DNA of 64,000 nt from Flaviramulus multivorans (GTDB lineage: Bacteria; Bacteroidota; Bacteroidia; Flavobacteriales; Flavobacteriaceae), in contig NZ_JAKKDV010000001.1 of the NCBI RefSeq assembly GCF_021728415.1, positions 415,977 to 479,976 on the forward strand, written 5' to 3'. The translations under genes and the position numbers were made by a program. Below the pieces are notes generated by a model, which saw nothing but the letters and a program-made list of their open reading frames with translations, was not told the origin of the DNA and searched no databases. Numbering within the stretch: the stretch's first letter is position 1; every line of letters begins with the position of its first letter. This document shows, one piece after another, positions 5,136 to 59,093 of the stretch.

Positions 5136-5262
5136 ACTAACTAAATTTAAATTAAACAATACGGAACTTCATTTATGCCTATTATTTTATATATTTGGTT
5201 CGACTACAACTATTAAATATAGGTTCTGGATTGAAATTCCATTTTTCCAGATTTAACTTTAA

Positions 5263-5290
5263 TAAAAACACCTCAAAAGAGGTGTTTTTA
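5263..5290 (-). terminator. Terminator downstream of the frameshifted unknown gene
   Basis: The stem TAAAAACACCTC / GAGGTGTTTTTA has an AAAA loop and T-rich flanks on both strands. It sits 2 bases after the stop codon of the alternative reading frame (5293-5295), which suggests that the ancestral gene ended there. Confidence 0.8.
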
Positions 5291-5292
5291 TT

Positions 5293-14482: not shown

Positions 14483-14616
14483 GCGTTCCCCAAATTAAAA
14501 ATTTGGGTCAGGCTTTTCGTTACAATCTTTTTTAAGGTTCTCGATACATTTCGATTTAAAAAAATCGAAACACTCGAACTGACATAAAAAAGGATTTTCA
14601 CTGCAATCCTTAACGC
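14483..14616. repeat. Imperfect palindromic intergenic repeat, copy 1
   Basis: The outer arms GCGTT / AACGC enclose several nested hairpins: CCCAAAT/ATTTGGG (14489-14507), TTTCGATTT/AAATCGAAA (14549-14570) flanked by TCTCGATAC and CACTCGAACTGACA, and AAGGATT/AATCCTT (14590-14611). The element fills the gap between the deaminase and HupE genes. It looks like a short mobile palindromic repeat of flavobacteria. It shares arm sequence with the element at 46145-46220. Confidence 0.6.
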
Positions 14617-14696
14617 AAAACAATATAACGAATATACTTGGTTCGTATTTTAATTACAACGCAAGTAAGTTAAAGTTTTATGAAATTTTTAAATAT

Positions 14697-19166: not shown

Positions 19167-19184
19167 TAATCCATAGTTTTATAA

Positions 19185-19224
19185 AAATAAAAAGGAAGTA
19201 TAAATTTATACCGCCTTTTTATTT
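19185..19224. terminator. Bidirectional terminator between convergent genes
   Basis: The arms AAATAAAAAGG / CCTTTTTATTT (19185-19195 and 19214-19224), with an inner TATAAATTTATA, separate the M13 peptidase gene from the convergent beta-barrel gene. Confidence 0.75.
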
Positions 19225-19245
19225 TTAAATTCATAATGACACCTC

Positions 19246-25448: not shown

Positions 25449-25470
25449 AACTCAAATTCTTAACTTAAGT

Positions 25471-25507
25471 AAAAAAGCTTTTACAATTTAATTGTAAAAG
25501 CTTTTTT
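25471..25507 (+). terminator. Terminator of ppc
   Basis: A perfect 17-bp stem, AAAAAAGCTTTTACAAT and its complement, has a 3-base loop and ends in T-run. Confidence 0.85.
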
Positions 25508-25532
25508 AGTATTATAATATCATCTTAAAGAA

Positions 25533-27206: not shown

Positions 27207-27239
27207 TCCAAAGCATCGTTGTAAAAACGATGCTTTGGA
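27207..27239. terminator. Strong intercistronic hairpin between porin and PII genes
   Basis: A perfect 14-bp stem TCCAAAGCATCGTT / AACGATGCTTTGGA with a GTAAA loop. On the minus strand, where both neighbours lie, the downstream arm is not followed by a T-run; the T-run is on the plus side. It may attenuate or stabilise the mRNA instead of being a full terminator. Confidence 0.6.
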
Positions 27240-34716: not shown

Positions 34717-34748
34717 AAAAAATGCGAACAATGGGTTCGCATTTTTTT
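34717..34748. terminator. Bidirectional terminator between gltD and fbp
   Basis: The stem AAAAAATGCGAAC / GTTCGCATTTTTT has a 5-base loop and T-runs on both strands. The two flanking genes converge on it. Confidence 0.88.
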
Positions 34749-39563: not shown

Positions 39564-40172
39564 TTAACCCAAATTAGAAAACACATACTTCATTTCAGTA
39601 GCTATTTGCAGGCTTCTATTAAAATAGGTTTCCGTTTGTTGTGGTGTTCCATCAGATTTTTTTGGATCCTCATAAGTTATTGCAATTCGTTTATCGCATC
39701 CAAAAACCATTGGACAGCCTTCATCAGCTGATGAACATGTCATAATCGCCGCAAACTCTGAAGCTGGATTAAAATCGTGACTAAACTCCTTTGAAAAAGC
39801 AATAATAGCAGGTTCGTTTTGCGAAAATTTAATACTATAAACAGGATTATTTTCGTCTGAAAGTCTATTGATTTTAAAGCCTTGGTTCTTTAAAGTTTCT
39901 GCAACCTTAGGAAACATGGCTGTTGCTTCAGTTCCACCAGAATAGCAACTTACATTATTTATATTATAATAAGCAGCCATAGTTTGAGCCCAAATTTGAG
40001 ACAAATGGCTGCGTCTAGAATTATGCGTGCAAATAAAATTTAATCGAATAGGTTTATTCGTTTCAATTTTATCTTCTAAATATACTTTTAAAGAGTTAAG
40101 AACTTCTTTTCTTTCATTAGAAATAATCGACGTATCTAATGAATTAATAGTTTTAGATATTATTTCAAACAT
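39564..40172 (-). CDS. Low-molecular-weight phosphatase / arsenate reductase-like protein
   Basis: The catalytic loop C-x5-R is present as FICTHNSRRSHLSQIW, with further Cys residues (NVSCYSGG, MTCSSADEGCPMVFGCD) that could relay electrons during arsenate reduction. Residues 1-45 form an N-terminal helical extension. As last gene of an arsR operon, an arsenate-reductase role is likely; substrate is inferred from context. 202 aa. Confidence 0.85.
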   Translation of the reverse strand: MFEIISKTINSLDTSIISNERKEVLNSLKVYLEDKIETNKPIRLNFICTHNSRRSHLSQIWAQTMAAYYNINNVSCYSGGTEATAMFPKVAETLKNQGFKINRLSDENNPVYSIKFSQNEPAIIAFSKEFSHDFNPASEFAAIMTCSSADEGCPMVFGCDKRIAITYEDPKKSDGTPQQTETYFNRSLQIATEMKYVFSNLG

Positions 40173-40195
40173 TTGTTTTTCTGTATTTGTTTAAA

Positions 40196-40705
40196 TTAAC
40201 AGCAGTTACCGTCTGGTGAACAACATGGTTCTGTTTTTTCTAAAACGCCTTCAGCAAATGCAACAACCTTTTCTGGAACTCCACAAAGCTCTTTAGCTTT
40301 ACAGTCTGTTTTTTCAACCGCTAATTTAACAACTAGGTTGTTCTCACGAACCTCAAAATCGTTAACAAAAAGTTGTGCTGTATGAAAATTGGCATTGCTA
40401 TATTCAAATTTAACCTCAGAATCTAAATCATAAGGTTTCATTGTTCCTACTTTTTTAAGAATTGCCAAGGCCTTATAAGCACTCATATATTCAGTTTTAG
40501 ATTTCTCTAATGGGCTTTCCCAAAGCTGAATAACAGTTTCATTCCACGTATCTGTTTGCGAACCACAGTCAACAGAATCTACCGAAATATGTTTTACTTC
40601 GGTAATATGGTAATTAGCACCAACCAATTTGTTTGGTGTATATTCAAACAATAAGGATTTGTCCTTGTTTTCCTCTAGTACTTTAAAAAATTCTTGCGTT
40701 TTCAT
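40196..40705 (-). CDS. DUF6428 family protein
   Basis: A 169-residue protein of a family found beside arsR in Bacteroidota. N-terminal region LLFEYTPNKLVGANYHITEV; Cys-rich end (TEPCCSPDGNCC) with Cys pairs that could bind arsenic or another thiophilic metal. No enzymatic motif is visible. It lies between arsR and the phosphatase gene. Confidence 0.85.
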   Translation of the reverse strand: MKTQEFFKVLEENKDKSLLFEYTPNKLVGANYHITEVKHISVDSVDCGSQTDTWNETVIQLWESPLEKSKTEYMSAYKALAILKKVGTMKPYDLDSEVKFEYSNANFHTAQLFVNDFEVRENNLVVKLAVEKTDCKAKELCGVPEKVVAFAEGVLEKTEPCCSPDGNCC

Positions 40706-40763
40706 ATTGTTATTTTTAAAATTTTATGTGATGCTGAATTAAGTTCAGCATTACAAAAACAGT

Positions 40764-41087
40764 CTAGCAGCAATTAGATTTTGTTTTATTAAAAAATGCG
40801 TTTAATTGGTTTTGTAACTCAACCCAACGGTTTACGTTAATACAGTAGCACATACTTTTTCCTTCAACTTCACCGATTAAGAGTCCTATACTTTTAAGTT
40901 CCTTTAAGTGTTGAGATATCGTAGCTTGTGCTAAACCAATTTCTTCTACCAAATCGTTACAAATACATGCATTTTGATTGCTTATATACTGTAAAATAGC
41001 TACTCTAGCTGGGTGACCAAGCACTTTAAAAAATTGAGCTAAATCATTTTGCTGTTCAGTAAAAATTTGTGTTTTAGTAATGCCCAT
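40764..41087 (-). CDS. arsR: ArsR-family metalloregulator
   Basis: A winged-helix repressor of 107 aa: LAQFFKVLGHPARVAILQYI is the family N-terminus, and QATISQHLKELKSIGLLIGE the recognition helix and wing. A possible thiol site lies in NQNACICNDLVEEI and the C-terminus ends SNCC. An ATAT-rich dyad, the usual ArsR operator type, lies just upstream of the start. Confidence 0.93.
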   Translation of the reverse strand: MGITKTQIFTEQQNDLAQFFKVLGHPARVAILQYISNQNACICNDLVEEIGLAQATISQHLKELKSIGLLIGEVEGKSMCYCINVNRWVELQNQLNAFFNKTKSNCC

Positions 41088-43324: not shown

Positions 43325-43783
43325 TTATTTTTTCTTTATGGCTGTTTCATAAATATCAATCCATTGCGCTACCGTCATTTTCTTTGAAAGTTCTTCAATT
43401 AATTTAAACGGAATGTCTTCTACTTTTTTAAATCTAATACAGCTTTTACCCATATCTAATTTACTTTTACAATGTTTAGGGTATTCTTTTACAAACCAAT
43501 CGTGTAGTTCAGGTTGGGAATAAATACCGCTGTGGTAAAGGTTTACTGAATTTTTTTGAGAAGCAAAACTCATAAAAGGTAAAGGTTCTTTCGGATTACA
43601 ATGATACCCATCTGGATATATAGAATGAGGTACGTAGTAACCTATCATGCCATACTGTATACCTTCTTCAAAACCTTTAGGTAAACTATCATTAATCACT
43701 TTTCTTAACTTTTTTAAAGCATCTTGTCTTTCTGCCGGAACTTGACTAATATAATCTTCTGGTGATGTGGCCTTATATTGCAT
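43325..43783 (-). CDS. DUF1801 domain protein
   Basis: The DUF1801 fold is recognised by SPEDYISQVPAERQDALKKL, GFEEGIQYGMIGYYVPHS and MGKSCIRFKKVEDIP. Cytosolic, function unknown. 152 aa. It lies 7 bases downstream of the DUF4199 gene and shares an operon with it. Confidence 0.88.
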   Translation of the reverse strand: MQYKATSPEDYISQVPAERQDALKKLRKVINDSLPKGFEEGIQYGMIGYYVPHSIYPDGYHCNPKEPLPFMSFASQKNSVNLYHSGIYSQPELHDWFVKEYPKHCKSKLDMGKSCIRFKKVEDIPFKLIEELSKKMTVAQWIDIYETAIKKK

Positions 43784-43790
43784 AGTAAAT

Positions 43791-44297
43791 TTATTTTCGT
43801 TGTAATATTAAACCCGAAATTAAAGAAATTATAAAACCAAGAATTATAACTGATGCAAACATCATAAGCGCCATAAAACTTGGGCTACCATAATCTTTCA
43901 TTTGTTGAGTTAACTCAGCAGTTTTAACTTTTAATTCTTCTGCTGATAATGTCTCTTCCATTTTTTTAACGGAATACTCTAAATACTCACTTGCAAAATC
44001 GGGATTTATCTGCGATGTATAAATATAATCGAAAACAGCAACTCCCAGTGCAGAAAACAAAGCTATTAACATCCCAATCCCTATAGCTTTTCCTAGAGAT
44101 ACTTTCCCATTATTTACTTTGTCGCGATAGTGTTTGATTCCAAAATAAACAAATAATAAAGAGAGCACCATGGATGTGTACCCTATAAGTTCTCCGTAGT
44201 CAAAATCTACACCCATTCCTAAAAAGAACGGCAACCCAAATAACACAAAGCCACTTATTAATGAGTAAAGTCCGTACTTAATCACTGTTTTTTTCAT
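43791..44297 (-). CDS. DUF4199 family membrane protein
   Basis: Four membrane helices in the DUF4199 arrangement (YGLYSLISGFVLFGLPFFLG, YTSMVLSLLFVYFGIKHYRD, AIGIGMLIALFSALGVAVFD, FMALMMFASVIILGFIISLI) with a soluble loop between helices 3 and 4. Function unknown. 168 aa. It is first gene of the run DUF4199-DUF1801-VOC-VOC, and a perfect inverted repeat lies 58 bases upstream. Confidence 0.85.
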   Translation of the reverse strand: MKKTVIKYGLYSLISGFVLFGLPFFLGMGVDFDYGELIGYTSMVLSLLFVYFGIKHYRDKVNNGKVSLGKAIGIGMLIALFSALGVAVFDYIYTSQINPDFASEYLEYSVKKMEETLSAEELKVKTAELTQQMKDYGSPSFMALMMFASVIILGFIISLISGLILQRK

Positions 44298-44354
44298 AAT
44301 GTTCGTTTTAAGATTGATTAGCCAAAAGTAGATAATGTGGGCAGTATTGAAGTC

Positions 44355-44388
44355 ATACTAAAGTACCAAATCAATAGTACTTTAGTAT
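44355..44388. promoter_or_regulatory. Perfect 12-bp inverted repeat upstream of the DUF4199 operon
   Basis: ATACTAAAGTAC (44355-44366) and GTACTTTAGTAT (44377-44388) are exact complements, separated by 10 bases. Each arm holds a smaller dyad TACTwwAGTA; the two dyads are 22 bp apart, two helical turns. No T-run follows on the minus strand, so an operator is more likely than a terminator. The neighbouring LuxR-type gene is the natural candidate regulator (inference). Confidence 0.6.
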
Positions 44389-44401: not shown

Positions 44402-44812
44402 TTATATGATTTGGTAATCTTTGGCAATTTGAAGTGCTTGCGTTCGGCGTTTTGCGTTTAGCTTTACTAACAAATTAGAAACATGGGTTTTTATAGTACT
44501 TTCTGAGAGGAATAGTTTTTCAGCTATTTCCCTATTTGACAGCCCTTCTGAAATAGCCTGAAGCACCTCGTATTCACGCTCGGTAATTTCTAATTCAGAT
44601 ATTTTTTTGTGATTAATCTCATTTAGTGGCAATGCGTTTTTATAAAGACTTTTTTTATTGATATAAATGCCTACTATAAAAAATACTATTGCTATTAAAG
44701 CAATAACAAACTCTGTTTTTAAATTTCCTGAAATTAATGCATACTTACTAAATTGAAATAGTAAGAGTAAAGCCAGAATAAGCAACGAAAAAACGATAAT
44801 TGTTTTTTTCAT
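44402..44812 (-). CDS. Membrane-anchored LuxR-type HTH regulator
   Basis: Two N-terminal membrane helices (IIVFSLLILALLLLFQF, TEFVIALIAIVFFIVGIYIN) are joined to a LuxR/GerE helix-turn-helix at about residues 72-130: ITEREYEVLQAISEGLSNRE and SESTIKTHVSNLLVKLNAKR. There is no receiver domain, so it is not a standard response regulator. It probably acts from the membrane; the target may be the inverted repeat 14 bases downstream, in front of DUF4199. 136 aa. Confidence 0.85.
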   Translation of the reverse strand: MKKTIIVFSLLILALLLLFQFSKYALISGNLKTEFVIALIAIVFFIVGIYINKKSLYKNALPLNEINHKKISELEITEREYEVLQAISEGLSNREIAEKLFLSESTIKTHVSNLLVKLNAKRRTQALQIAKDYQII

Positions 44813-44821
44813 GCTTTAAAA

Positions 44822-45757
44822 TTAACAAAATTTGGTCTTAATTTTATCAACTATAGTTTGGGCCAACTTTTCTTTGCTCTCAATAGTCCAGCCCGCTACA
44901 TGCGGTGTTAGCAATACATTATTAGCTTCTATTAAATATTGAAACGCTTCTGGCATTGCTGAAGTAAACAAACTTTCAAACGAGGCCTTTTCGTATTCTA
45001 AAACATCTAATCCTGCACCTAAAATTTTACCAGATTTTAATGTCGAAACTAAATCTTTTGTAACCACACTTTTACCGCGTGCAGTGTTTATAAACCAAAA
45101 CGGTTTTTTAAATTGATTTATAAATTCAGTATTAATCATGTTTAATGTTAAAGGTGTTTGTGGCGTATGTAAGCTTACCACATCAACTTTTTCTTGAAAT
45201 ACTTTGAGTGAAACCTGTTTTGCATTAGAGTCTGCAACATTATCTTTTATATCGTAGCACAATACCTCAACATCAAATCCTCTAAGTTTTTTGGCAAATG
45301 CCTTTCCCATATTACCGTAACCTATAATACCTACTATTTTTCCATCAAGTTCTATTCCGCGATTGTCTTCACGTAGCCATTTACCATTTCGAACTTCATT
45401 ATCTGCCTTATTAAGTTTATTAAATAGTGAAAGTAACATGCCTAAAGCGTGTTCTCCAACTGCATTGCGGTTACCTTCAGGAGCTGCGATAAGTTCGATA
45501 CCTTTTGATAAGGCATAATCACAATCAATGTTTTCAAGTCCCGCACCAACACGACCAATAAATTTAAGGTTTAAAGCTGCATCAATAAATTGTTTATCGA
45601 TTGTAAAACGACTTCGTAAAACGATTCCATCGTAATTTTGAATTTTCGCCTCAATCTGTTCTTTTGAAGACGTGTAATCTTCGTCATTTATAAAACCTAA
45701 ATCGTTAAGCTGGTTTATTAATAACTCATGGTTGGTGTCGAGGTGAAGAATTTTCAT
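44822..45757 (-). CDS. D-isomer 2-hydroxyacid dehydrogenase family protein
   Basis: An NAD-dependent dehydrogenase related to phosphoglycerate dehydrogenase. Rossmann motif GIIGYGNMGKAFAKKL; catalytic Arg in INTARGKSVV; catalytic His in LLTPHVAGWT. At 311 aa it lacks the C-terminal ACT domain of full SerA. The natural substrate is not resolved. It follows the cupin gene with no gap. Confidence 0.88.
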   Translation of the reverse strand: MKILHLDTNHELLINQLNDLGFINDEDYTSSKEQIEAKIQNYDGIVLRSRFTIDKQFIDAALNLKFIGRVGAGLENIDCDYALSKGIELIAAPEGNRNAVGEHALGMLLSLFNKLNKADNEVRNGKWLREDNRGIELDGKIVGIIGYGNMGKAFAKKLRGFDVEVLCYDIKDNVADSNAKQVSLKVFQEKVDVVSLHTPQTPLTLNMINTEFINQFKKPFWFINTARGKSVVTKDLVSTLKSGKILGAGLDVLEYEKASFESLFTSAMPEAFQYLIEANNVLLTPHVAGWTIESKEKLAQTIVDKIKTKFC

Positions 45758-46123: not shown

Positions 46124-46144
46124 AGGGTAAATTTACGAAGTTTT

Positions 46145-46220
46145 GCGTTAGCGATTGAAAAGAAAATCCTTTTGCTTTTGCAAAAGATTGTACTGTAAAG
46201 CGCGACCTGAAAGGTAACGC
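46145..46220. repeat. Imperfect palindromic intergenic repeat, copy 2
   Basis: The outer arms GCGTTA (46145-46150) and TAACGC (46215-46220) enclose a perfect inner hairpin CTTTTGC-TTTT-GCAAAAG (46169-46186) and a CGCGACCTGAAAGG segment. It lies between mgtE and the cupin gene. The outer arms match those of the element at 14483-14616. Confidence 0.6.
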
Positions 46221-51659: not shown

Positions 51660-51695
51660 AAAATAAAATCTTACAAAATTGTAAGATTTTATTTT
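51660..51695 (-). terminator. Terminator of serS
   Basis: A long perfect AT-rich stem (17 bp, AAAATAAAATCTTACAA and complement) with a tiny loop and T-rich flank lies 24 bases after the serS stop. Confidence 0.8.
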
Positions 51696-58377: not shown

Positions 58378-58381
58378 CTAT

Positions 58382-58414
58382 AAAAAAAGAGAAGATTTAA
58401 TCTTCTCTTTTTTT
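58382..58414. terminator. Bidirectional terminator between protease gene and pth
   Basis: The stem AAAAAGAGAAGATT and its complement, with a small AT loop and T-runs on both strands, lies between convergent genes. Confidence 0.85.
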
Positions 58415-59039
58415 ATTTACCGTTAAAAGCGTTCATGGTATTGTTTACTCCAGATAAGGCAAACGATTTTATAAGTTCTTTCGATTTTTCTAGTCGTTCT
58501 TTTAGCTTTTCGGTTTCCTCATCAGTCCATTCACCTAAAACATAATCTACCTGCCTTCCTTTACTATAGAAGTCACTTATACCAAAACGGAAACGGTTAT
58601 ATTTTGTGGTATTTAATTTGTCTTGAATATCTTTAAGTCCGTTATGTCCGCCATCACTTCCTTTAGTTTTTAGCCTAATACTGCCAAAGGGTAAATTTAA
58701 ATCGTCTGTTATAATTAAAAGATTTTCTAACTGGATTTTTTCTTTCGTTAACCAGTATAAAACGGCTTTTCCACTTAAATTCATATACGTATTAGGTTTC
58801 AATAATATAAATGTTCTGCCTTTAAGTTTATACGTAGTAATATCACCTAATTTTTGGGTTTCAAAAGTCAATTGCTCCTTGTTAGCGAAATAATCCAATA
58901 CTTTAAACCCTATGTTATGGCGTGTATTTTCATATTTCTCTCCAATGTTACCTAAACCAACAATTAAATATTTCTTCATAGGATTTTGTTCTTCTATGGC
59001 TCTTTTCTTTTTAAACAATCTTCTTAAAAACTCACACAT
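58413..59039 (-). CDS. pth: Peptidyl-tRNA hydrolase
   Basis: Recycles peptidyl-tRNA released from ribosomes. MKKYLIVGLGNIGEKYENTR with the catalytic His in ENTRHNIGF, plus LLIITDDLNLPFGSIRLK and GSDGGHNGLKDI. A 20-residue basic extension precedes the usual start (MCEFLRRLFKKKRAIEEQNP); translation might start at either Met (59039 or 58979). 208 or 188 aa. Confidence 0.93.
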   Translation of the reverse strand: MCEFLRRLFKKKRAIEEQNPMKKYLIVGLGNIGEKYENTRHNIGFKVLDYFANKEQLTFETQKLGDITTYKLKGRTFILLKPNTYMNLSGKAVLYWLTKEKIQLENLLIITDDLNLPFGSIRLKTKGSDGGHNGLKDIQDKLNTTKYNRFRFGISDFYSKGRQVDYVLGEWTDEETEKLKERLEKSKELIKSFALSGVNNTMNAFNGK

Positions 59040-59064: not shown

Positions 59065-59093
59065 AAAGCATCCTGAATAATTCAGGATGCTTT
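59065..59093 (-). terminator. Terminator after rplY
   Basis: The 13-bp stem AAAGCATCCTGAA / TTCAGGATGCTTT has a short loop and a T-run on the minus strand. Confidence 0.88.

Follow-up and report, generated by a model that had tools for sequence, protein, structure and literature searches.

The promoter of a gene for a DUF4199 membrane protein quite probably contains a two-site operator, to which a putatively membrane-tethered LuxR-type protein encoded beside it would presumably bind, thereby activating DUF4199. The presumed target (43791..44297, minus strand; Pfam DUF4199, E 1.4e-32) and the gene of the presumed binder (44402..44812, minus strand; two hydrophobic N-terminal helices and a GerE helix-turn-helix (HTH) domain, Pfam GerE, E 4.7e-20) lie in one 64,000-nucleotide stretch of DNA, the whole of which we call the window. 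Judged by its sequence and that of its relatives, the pair is best read as a dedicated one-target switch.

Between the two genes, direct reading of the sequence revealed a perfect 12-bp inverted repeat (44355..44388, no strand assigned) with a plus strand of ATACTAAAGTAC-CAAATCAATA-GTACTTTAGTAT. Its arms, 44355-44366 (ATACTAAAGTAC) and 44377-44388 (GTACTTTAGTAT), are complementary at 12/12 positions across a 10-nt loop, and each holds a TACTwwAGTA dyad (44356-44365 and 44378-44387) with 22 bp between the two centers. The repeat, its paired dyads, their spacing and its place between the LuxR-type gene and DUF4199 were thus all correctly described in the first-pass annotation; both flanking ORFs are on the minus strand, with 13 nt from the repeat to the stop codon of the LuxR-type ORF and 57 nt to the start of the DUF4199 ORF. 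Counting perfect repeats with arms of at least 12 bp and loops of 3-20 gave 9 in the window vs 0-1 in each of 8 dinucleotide shuffles. The other eight, with arms of 13-18 bp, lie at 5261-5292, 19182-19227, 25470-25508, 27207-27239, 34717-34747, 51660-51695, 58380-58416 and 59065-59093; seven of them, with loops of 3-5, may be terminators, and one has a loop of 18. Since the window holds nine such repeats, the repeat by itself does not tell its own nature. A genome-wide search for TACTwwAGTA pairs, as the annotation had proposed, found the paired arrangement once in 3.28 Mb. The lone TACTWWAGTA dyad showed no enrichment in the genome (30 sites vs 37 for a reversed control), so specificity has to come from the flanks.

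To evaluate conservation, we aligned 66 loci, the window and 65 relatives, on their best match to TTTGGTACTTTAGTATGAG. The relatives, all from Flavobacteriaceae or Flavobacteriales and collected in one scan by DUF4199 (38-92% identity in that protein), have a LuxR relative upstream of DUF4199 in 65/65 cases, matching only in part in L074 and lying 928 nt away in L079. Mean pairwise identity across the 66 loci was 0.94 over the 18 columns of the promoter-proximal site (TTTGGTACTTTAGTATGA; 44353..44370, minus strand), 0.32 over the 20-bp spacer that follows it, 0.51 over the distal dyad and 0.84 over a predicted -7 box. On this alignment it is the promoter-proximal site that is conserved as a unit, and not the dyad pair. 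The annotation had named lack of conservation with the LuxR-DUF4199 pair as grounds for giving up its reading; in the relatives the element is conserved with the pair.

The predicted -7 box (TACTTTTG, of the form TAnnTTTG; 44323..44330, minus strand) was found with at most one mismatch in 63/66 loci, and in 62 of these 63 its distance from the site is identical; a TTTG at the -33 spacing was found in 0/66 loci, with TTG there in one. Class II activator sites, like lux boxes, are located near -42. In Flavobacterium psychrophilum (PMC9723704), the sigma-A TAnnTTTG box occupies -12 to -5, and leaders have a median length of 24 nt. Placing our box at that position would center the proximal site at -42.5 and the distal dyad at -64.5, and would put the start of transcription in the window near 44318, with a 21-nt leader. 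A site centered near -42 combined with a poor upstream core element would fit the geometry of a class II activator, provided that the start derived from PMC9723704 applies here. The main rival explanation retains the operator and the LuxR binder and has LuxR repress DUF4199 until a membrane signal releases it; this promoter geometry is compatible with a block of the polymerase as well, and we infer the sign of regulation (activation, not repression), as we do LuxR as the binder, the start site and the signal. However, a missing -33 element together with a site at -42.5, the combination predicted here, is typical of activator-dependent promoters, and we regard repression as rather unlikely.

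The order cupin, dehydrogenase, luxR, DUF4199, DUF1801, VOC is broadly conserved among the 66 loci. A D-2-hydroxyacid dehydrogenase gene (44822..45757, minus strand; assigned by Pfam) lies 9 nt upstream of luxR in the window and is found upstream of luxR in 66/66 loci, window included; luxR is presumably co-transcribed with it. As the aligned gap between the two is 16 nt or less in 49/66 loci, most loci probably lack a separate luxR promoter, and the site would serve the downstream gene. On the other side, a DUF1801 gene (43325..43783, minus strand; Pfam) directly follows DUF4199, is often next in order in the relatives and is possibly co-transcribed with DUF4199. In 7/66 loci a VOC (glyoxalase) gene stands between luxR and DUF4199. 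The site precedes the VOC gene in 7/7 of these, and three of them (L031, L039, L040) have a further site before DUF4199, indicating that the site follows promoters and not the end of luxR; in these three the VOC gene, having its own operator copy, may be a second target. Elsewhere in the window, ORFs that by eye resemble an ArsR-type regulator and an arsenate-reductase-like gene lie at 39564-41087 (minus strand), and two matches to the Flavo-1 RNA score above the gathering score (14502-14621, minus strand; 46140-46211, plus strand).

Next, we took one genome per genus from the same family, 149 in total, and examined the association of the site with the gene pair; the genus-level sample consisted of the window's own genome alone. 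The exact 15-mer GGTACTTTMGTATGA occurs in 32/149 genomes, once in each (reversed control: 1 genome). A LuxR relative (E <=1e-20) occurs in 35/149, and all 35 also contain a DUF4199 relative and the proximal site with the LuxR-DUF4199 pair, 31 as the exact 15-mer and 4 with A for the first G. Among the 114 genomes without this LuxR, one contains the exact 15-mer (31/35 vs 1/114; Fisher p 1.6e-26, not corrected for kinship). When 30 site loci were fetched, 29 adjoined luxR and DUF4199, 9 of them with a VOC gene in between; the remaining locus, L099, lacks both genes and appears to be a chance match. Two further 15-mer loci were read separately. DUF4199 relatives were also found in 30 genomes without this LuxR and are mostly distant; given this and the conserved synteny of the whole cluster, part of the co-occurrence reflects shared descent.

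Individual genomes bear on whether the site goes with luxR. In G119, a second DUF4199 stands next to a second LuxR (41% identical), with CCTGGTACTTTAGTAGGA in the spacer, and G330 has two LuxR-DUF4199 pairs with a site at each. In G102, luxR is missing between the dehydrogenase gene and DUF4199, and the site reads TTCATACATTAGTATGAG, altered yet much retained; G066, in which DUF4199 is at a contig end, was left unjudged. At the second pair of G119 (L156, G119:C1:684000-687500), the pair follows a GntR-type-like ORF, and GGAAATATGC flanks the operator on both sides. These genomes and the family-wide counts also address whether another regulator might bind the site, luxR being just a conserved neighbor: LuxR binding is a prediction and the order of the other neighbors is conserved too, but the 15-mer occurs once per genome, together with this LuxR in 31/32 genomes, and the paralogous pairs elsewhere in G119 and G330 have sites of their own, which makes a different binder improbable. 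We also looked for co-variation between the site and the recognition helix (half-site vs the residue after KTH). The raw Fisher test gave p 1.9e-4, but on the tree just 4 supported pairs were independent and no signal remained, and this candidate was rejected; in this test the site copy was chosen by hand for several rows, and row L163 had a wrong residue in the tree test.

A wider regulon was sought in the window's own genome with the 15-mer GGTACTTTAGTATGA. Allowing up to 2 mismatches, we obtained 10 matches vs 13 for the reversed control, one exact and nine at 2 mismatches, including the repeat's own distal arm; since this is not above the control, the search points to no further targets in this genome. 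Two of the 2-mismatch matches share one repetitive stretch, where neither luxR nor DUF4199 was found.

The distal dyad (TACTAAAGTA in minus-strand reading; 44378..44387, minus strand) appears to be an optional second site. Upon scanning registers from -60 to +40, the dyad was best matched, the site itself aside, at -22 (at least 8/10 matches in 39/66 loci), followed by -8 and +35; we attribute the former to a near-repeat inside the site and the latter to the -7 box. The copy is inverted in the window, inverted or direct in other loci, and absent in several Allomuricauda loci; in L046-L048 and the Kordia loci L068, L071, L079 and L084 it is TT-centered and pairs poorly with the proximal arm. 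The two-turn spacing of 22 bp is kept in Flavobacteriaceae. In other families (L163-L199), loose matching placed a second site at 22-27 or 37-39 bp, in two groups, and because the spacing thus differs among families, strict binding on one face is not general. The proposal that this is an operator pair bound on one DNA face is thus supported by conservation as regards the operator, with the refinements that the second copy is optional (39/66 loci) and that a single face is not the rule outside Flavobacteriaceae. The repeat does not appear to act as an RNA hairpin, be it a luxR terminator or a structured leader, a reading to which we give almost no credence: the minus-strand transcript of the window does fold stably here (-23.8 kcal/mol, z -4.7), but the repeat has no T run, at least 9 of the 10 dyad positions can pair in just 25/66 loci, 14 of the 39 loci with a distal copy pair at 8 or fewer positions while the dyad persists, and the predicted start lies downstream of the repeat. 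As the pairing is not conserved and the dyads are kept, DNA-binding sites fit better than an RNA stem. Terminator calling on both strands gave none here, a terminator being the other finding that the annotation had said would count against an operator, and we retain the operator reading.

The pair extends beyond the family. In the order (246 genomes), 11 LuxR matches were found in 10 genomes (E <=1e-15), with DUF4199 near all 11. The window and G124 account for two of them; the other nine have sites that include TCCTACTTTAGTAGGA and TCATACTTTGGTATGA. Among 395 genomes of the class, the profile matched 238 genomes, many through the HTH alone. We looked at 28 newly fetched class loci (L172-L199), which are mostly the best matches, about 30 further long matches lying outside this set. 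DUF4199 is downstream in 26/28; L176 stops at a contig edge, and the LuxR relative in L174 comes with neither a downstream DUF4199 nor a good site. Of the loci from order and class that have DUF4199, 35 in all, 19 place the -7 box (at most one mismatch) at a distance of exactly 22 bp downstream of the half-site; no other distance between 5 and 39 occurs more than once. The half-site itself was within one mismatch in 35/35, a count of little weight since so short a motif often matches by chance, and the script sometimes took the other copy. Its left half reads TCACCC or TCATCC in some distant families. By these counts, the LuxR-DUF4199 pair, often with the site 22 bp before a -7 box, extends to other families of the class.

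The 136-aa LuxR-type protein matches the GerE HTH (PF00196) at 71.4 bits (cut-off 23.5). Pfam gave no match to a receiver domain, residues 1-58 consisting of two helices, and none to an autoinducer-binding domain. An AlphaFold2 model of modest confidence (mean pLDDT 81.7, pTM 0.50) has helices at 2-28 and 31-58, a linker and the HTH. By reading and model the two helices are hydrophobic and, joined to the HTH, may tether the protein to the membrane. The DUF4199 protein matches PF13858 at 113.9 bits (cut-off 32.3) and is modeled as helical (mean pLDDT 94.0); a fold search of the PDB gave no match at E <=0.001 (best: 0.21).

The closest solved HTH domains are those of 4wt0 and 4wsz (E 1.2e-13 and 2.4e-13), which we take to be LiaR, and of VraR (5hev, E 2.5e-13). 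The likeness to LiaR/VraR-type response regulators (NarL/FixJ, LuxR HTH) lies in these domains; membrane helices here take the place of the receiver domain. The VraR site is of the ACT..AGT type. ToxR/CadC-type proteins are inner-membrane-tethered one-component activators of nearby genes with a winged-helix domain and a periplasmic sensor domain; the protein described here resembles them in its predicted tethered DNA-binding domain and differs in its LuxR HTH and in leaving no space for a sensor domain. Quorum-sensing LuxR binds a lux box at -42.5, the class II activator position, and shares with our candidate the LuxR HTH and a dyad operator at that position, predicted in our case; the present system has no autoinducer-binding domain, a shorter dyad and a Bacteroidota-type sigma-A -7 box. 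The LuxR-type regulators of Eggerthella and Gordonibacter are large polytopic proteins, in contrast to the two helices found here. Membrane-bound LuxR-type proteins of Eggerthella lenta/Gordonibacter catechol dehydroxylase loci are reported to regulate the associated adjoining gene (PMC11585353), which parallels a presumably membrane-bound LuxR-type protein encoded beside its presumed target; those proteins come from another phylum, respond to substrates and regulate metal-containing enzymes. A literature search for LiaR/VraR sites, including PMC10269926, gave no usable consensus. In the sources searched, DUF4199 is named only within a P. gingivalis expression table, and DUF4199 together with LuxR was not found in that literature, most subscription papers and all preprints being outside its scope. 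The pairing of a sensorless, putatively membrane-bound LuxR with DUF4199 through one site in several families of one class thus appears undescribed in the literature searched, its parts being of known kinds.

We propose the following mechanism for activation of DUF4199 by LuxR. LuxR would be made together with the upstream dehydrogenase gene, and with its membrane part in the active state it would sit as a dimer on the proximal site, centered at -42.5 beside RNA polymerase. Bound LuxR would contact the polymerase, replacing the absent -33 element, and DUF4199 with its co-transcribed genes would be switched on. In some lineages the distal site may raise affinity or allow cooperativity, and it would be dispensable. 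Because there is no sensor domain, the state of the membrane or contact with DUF4199 are natural, if speculative, candidates for the signal. A further-reaching version, which we consider doubtful, is a class-wide minimal membrane-sensing circuit in which the two-helix LuxR senses the state of the bilayer or DUF4199 and drives a single promoter, DUF4199 being both its only direct target and a feedback partner that silences it.

For DUF4199, a family of membrane proteins with no known function, these results provide a concrete candidate set of regulator, operator and target. To our knowledge, few activator sites are known in this group of bacteria; if the proposed reading is right, the system would offer a sharply defined one, together with a compact model for a LuxR protein that has membrane helices and no sensor domain.
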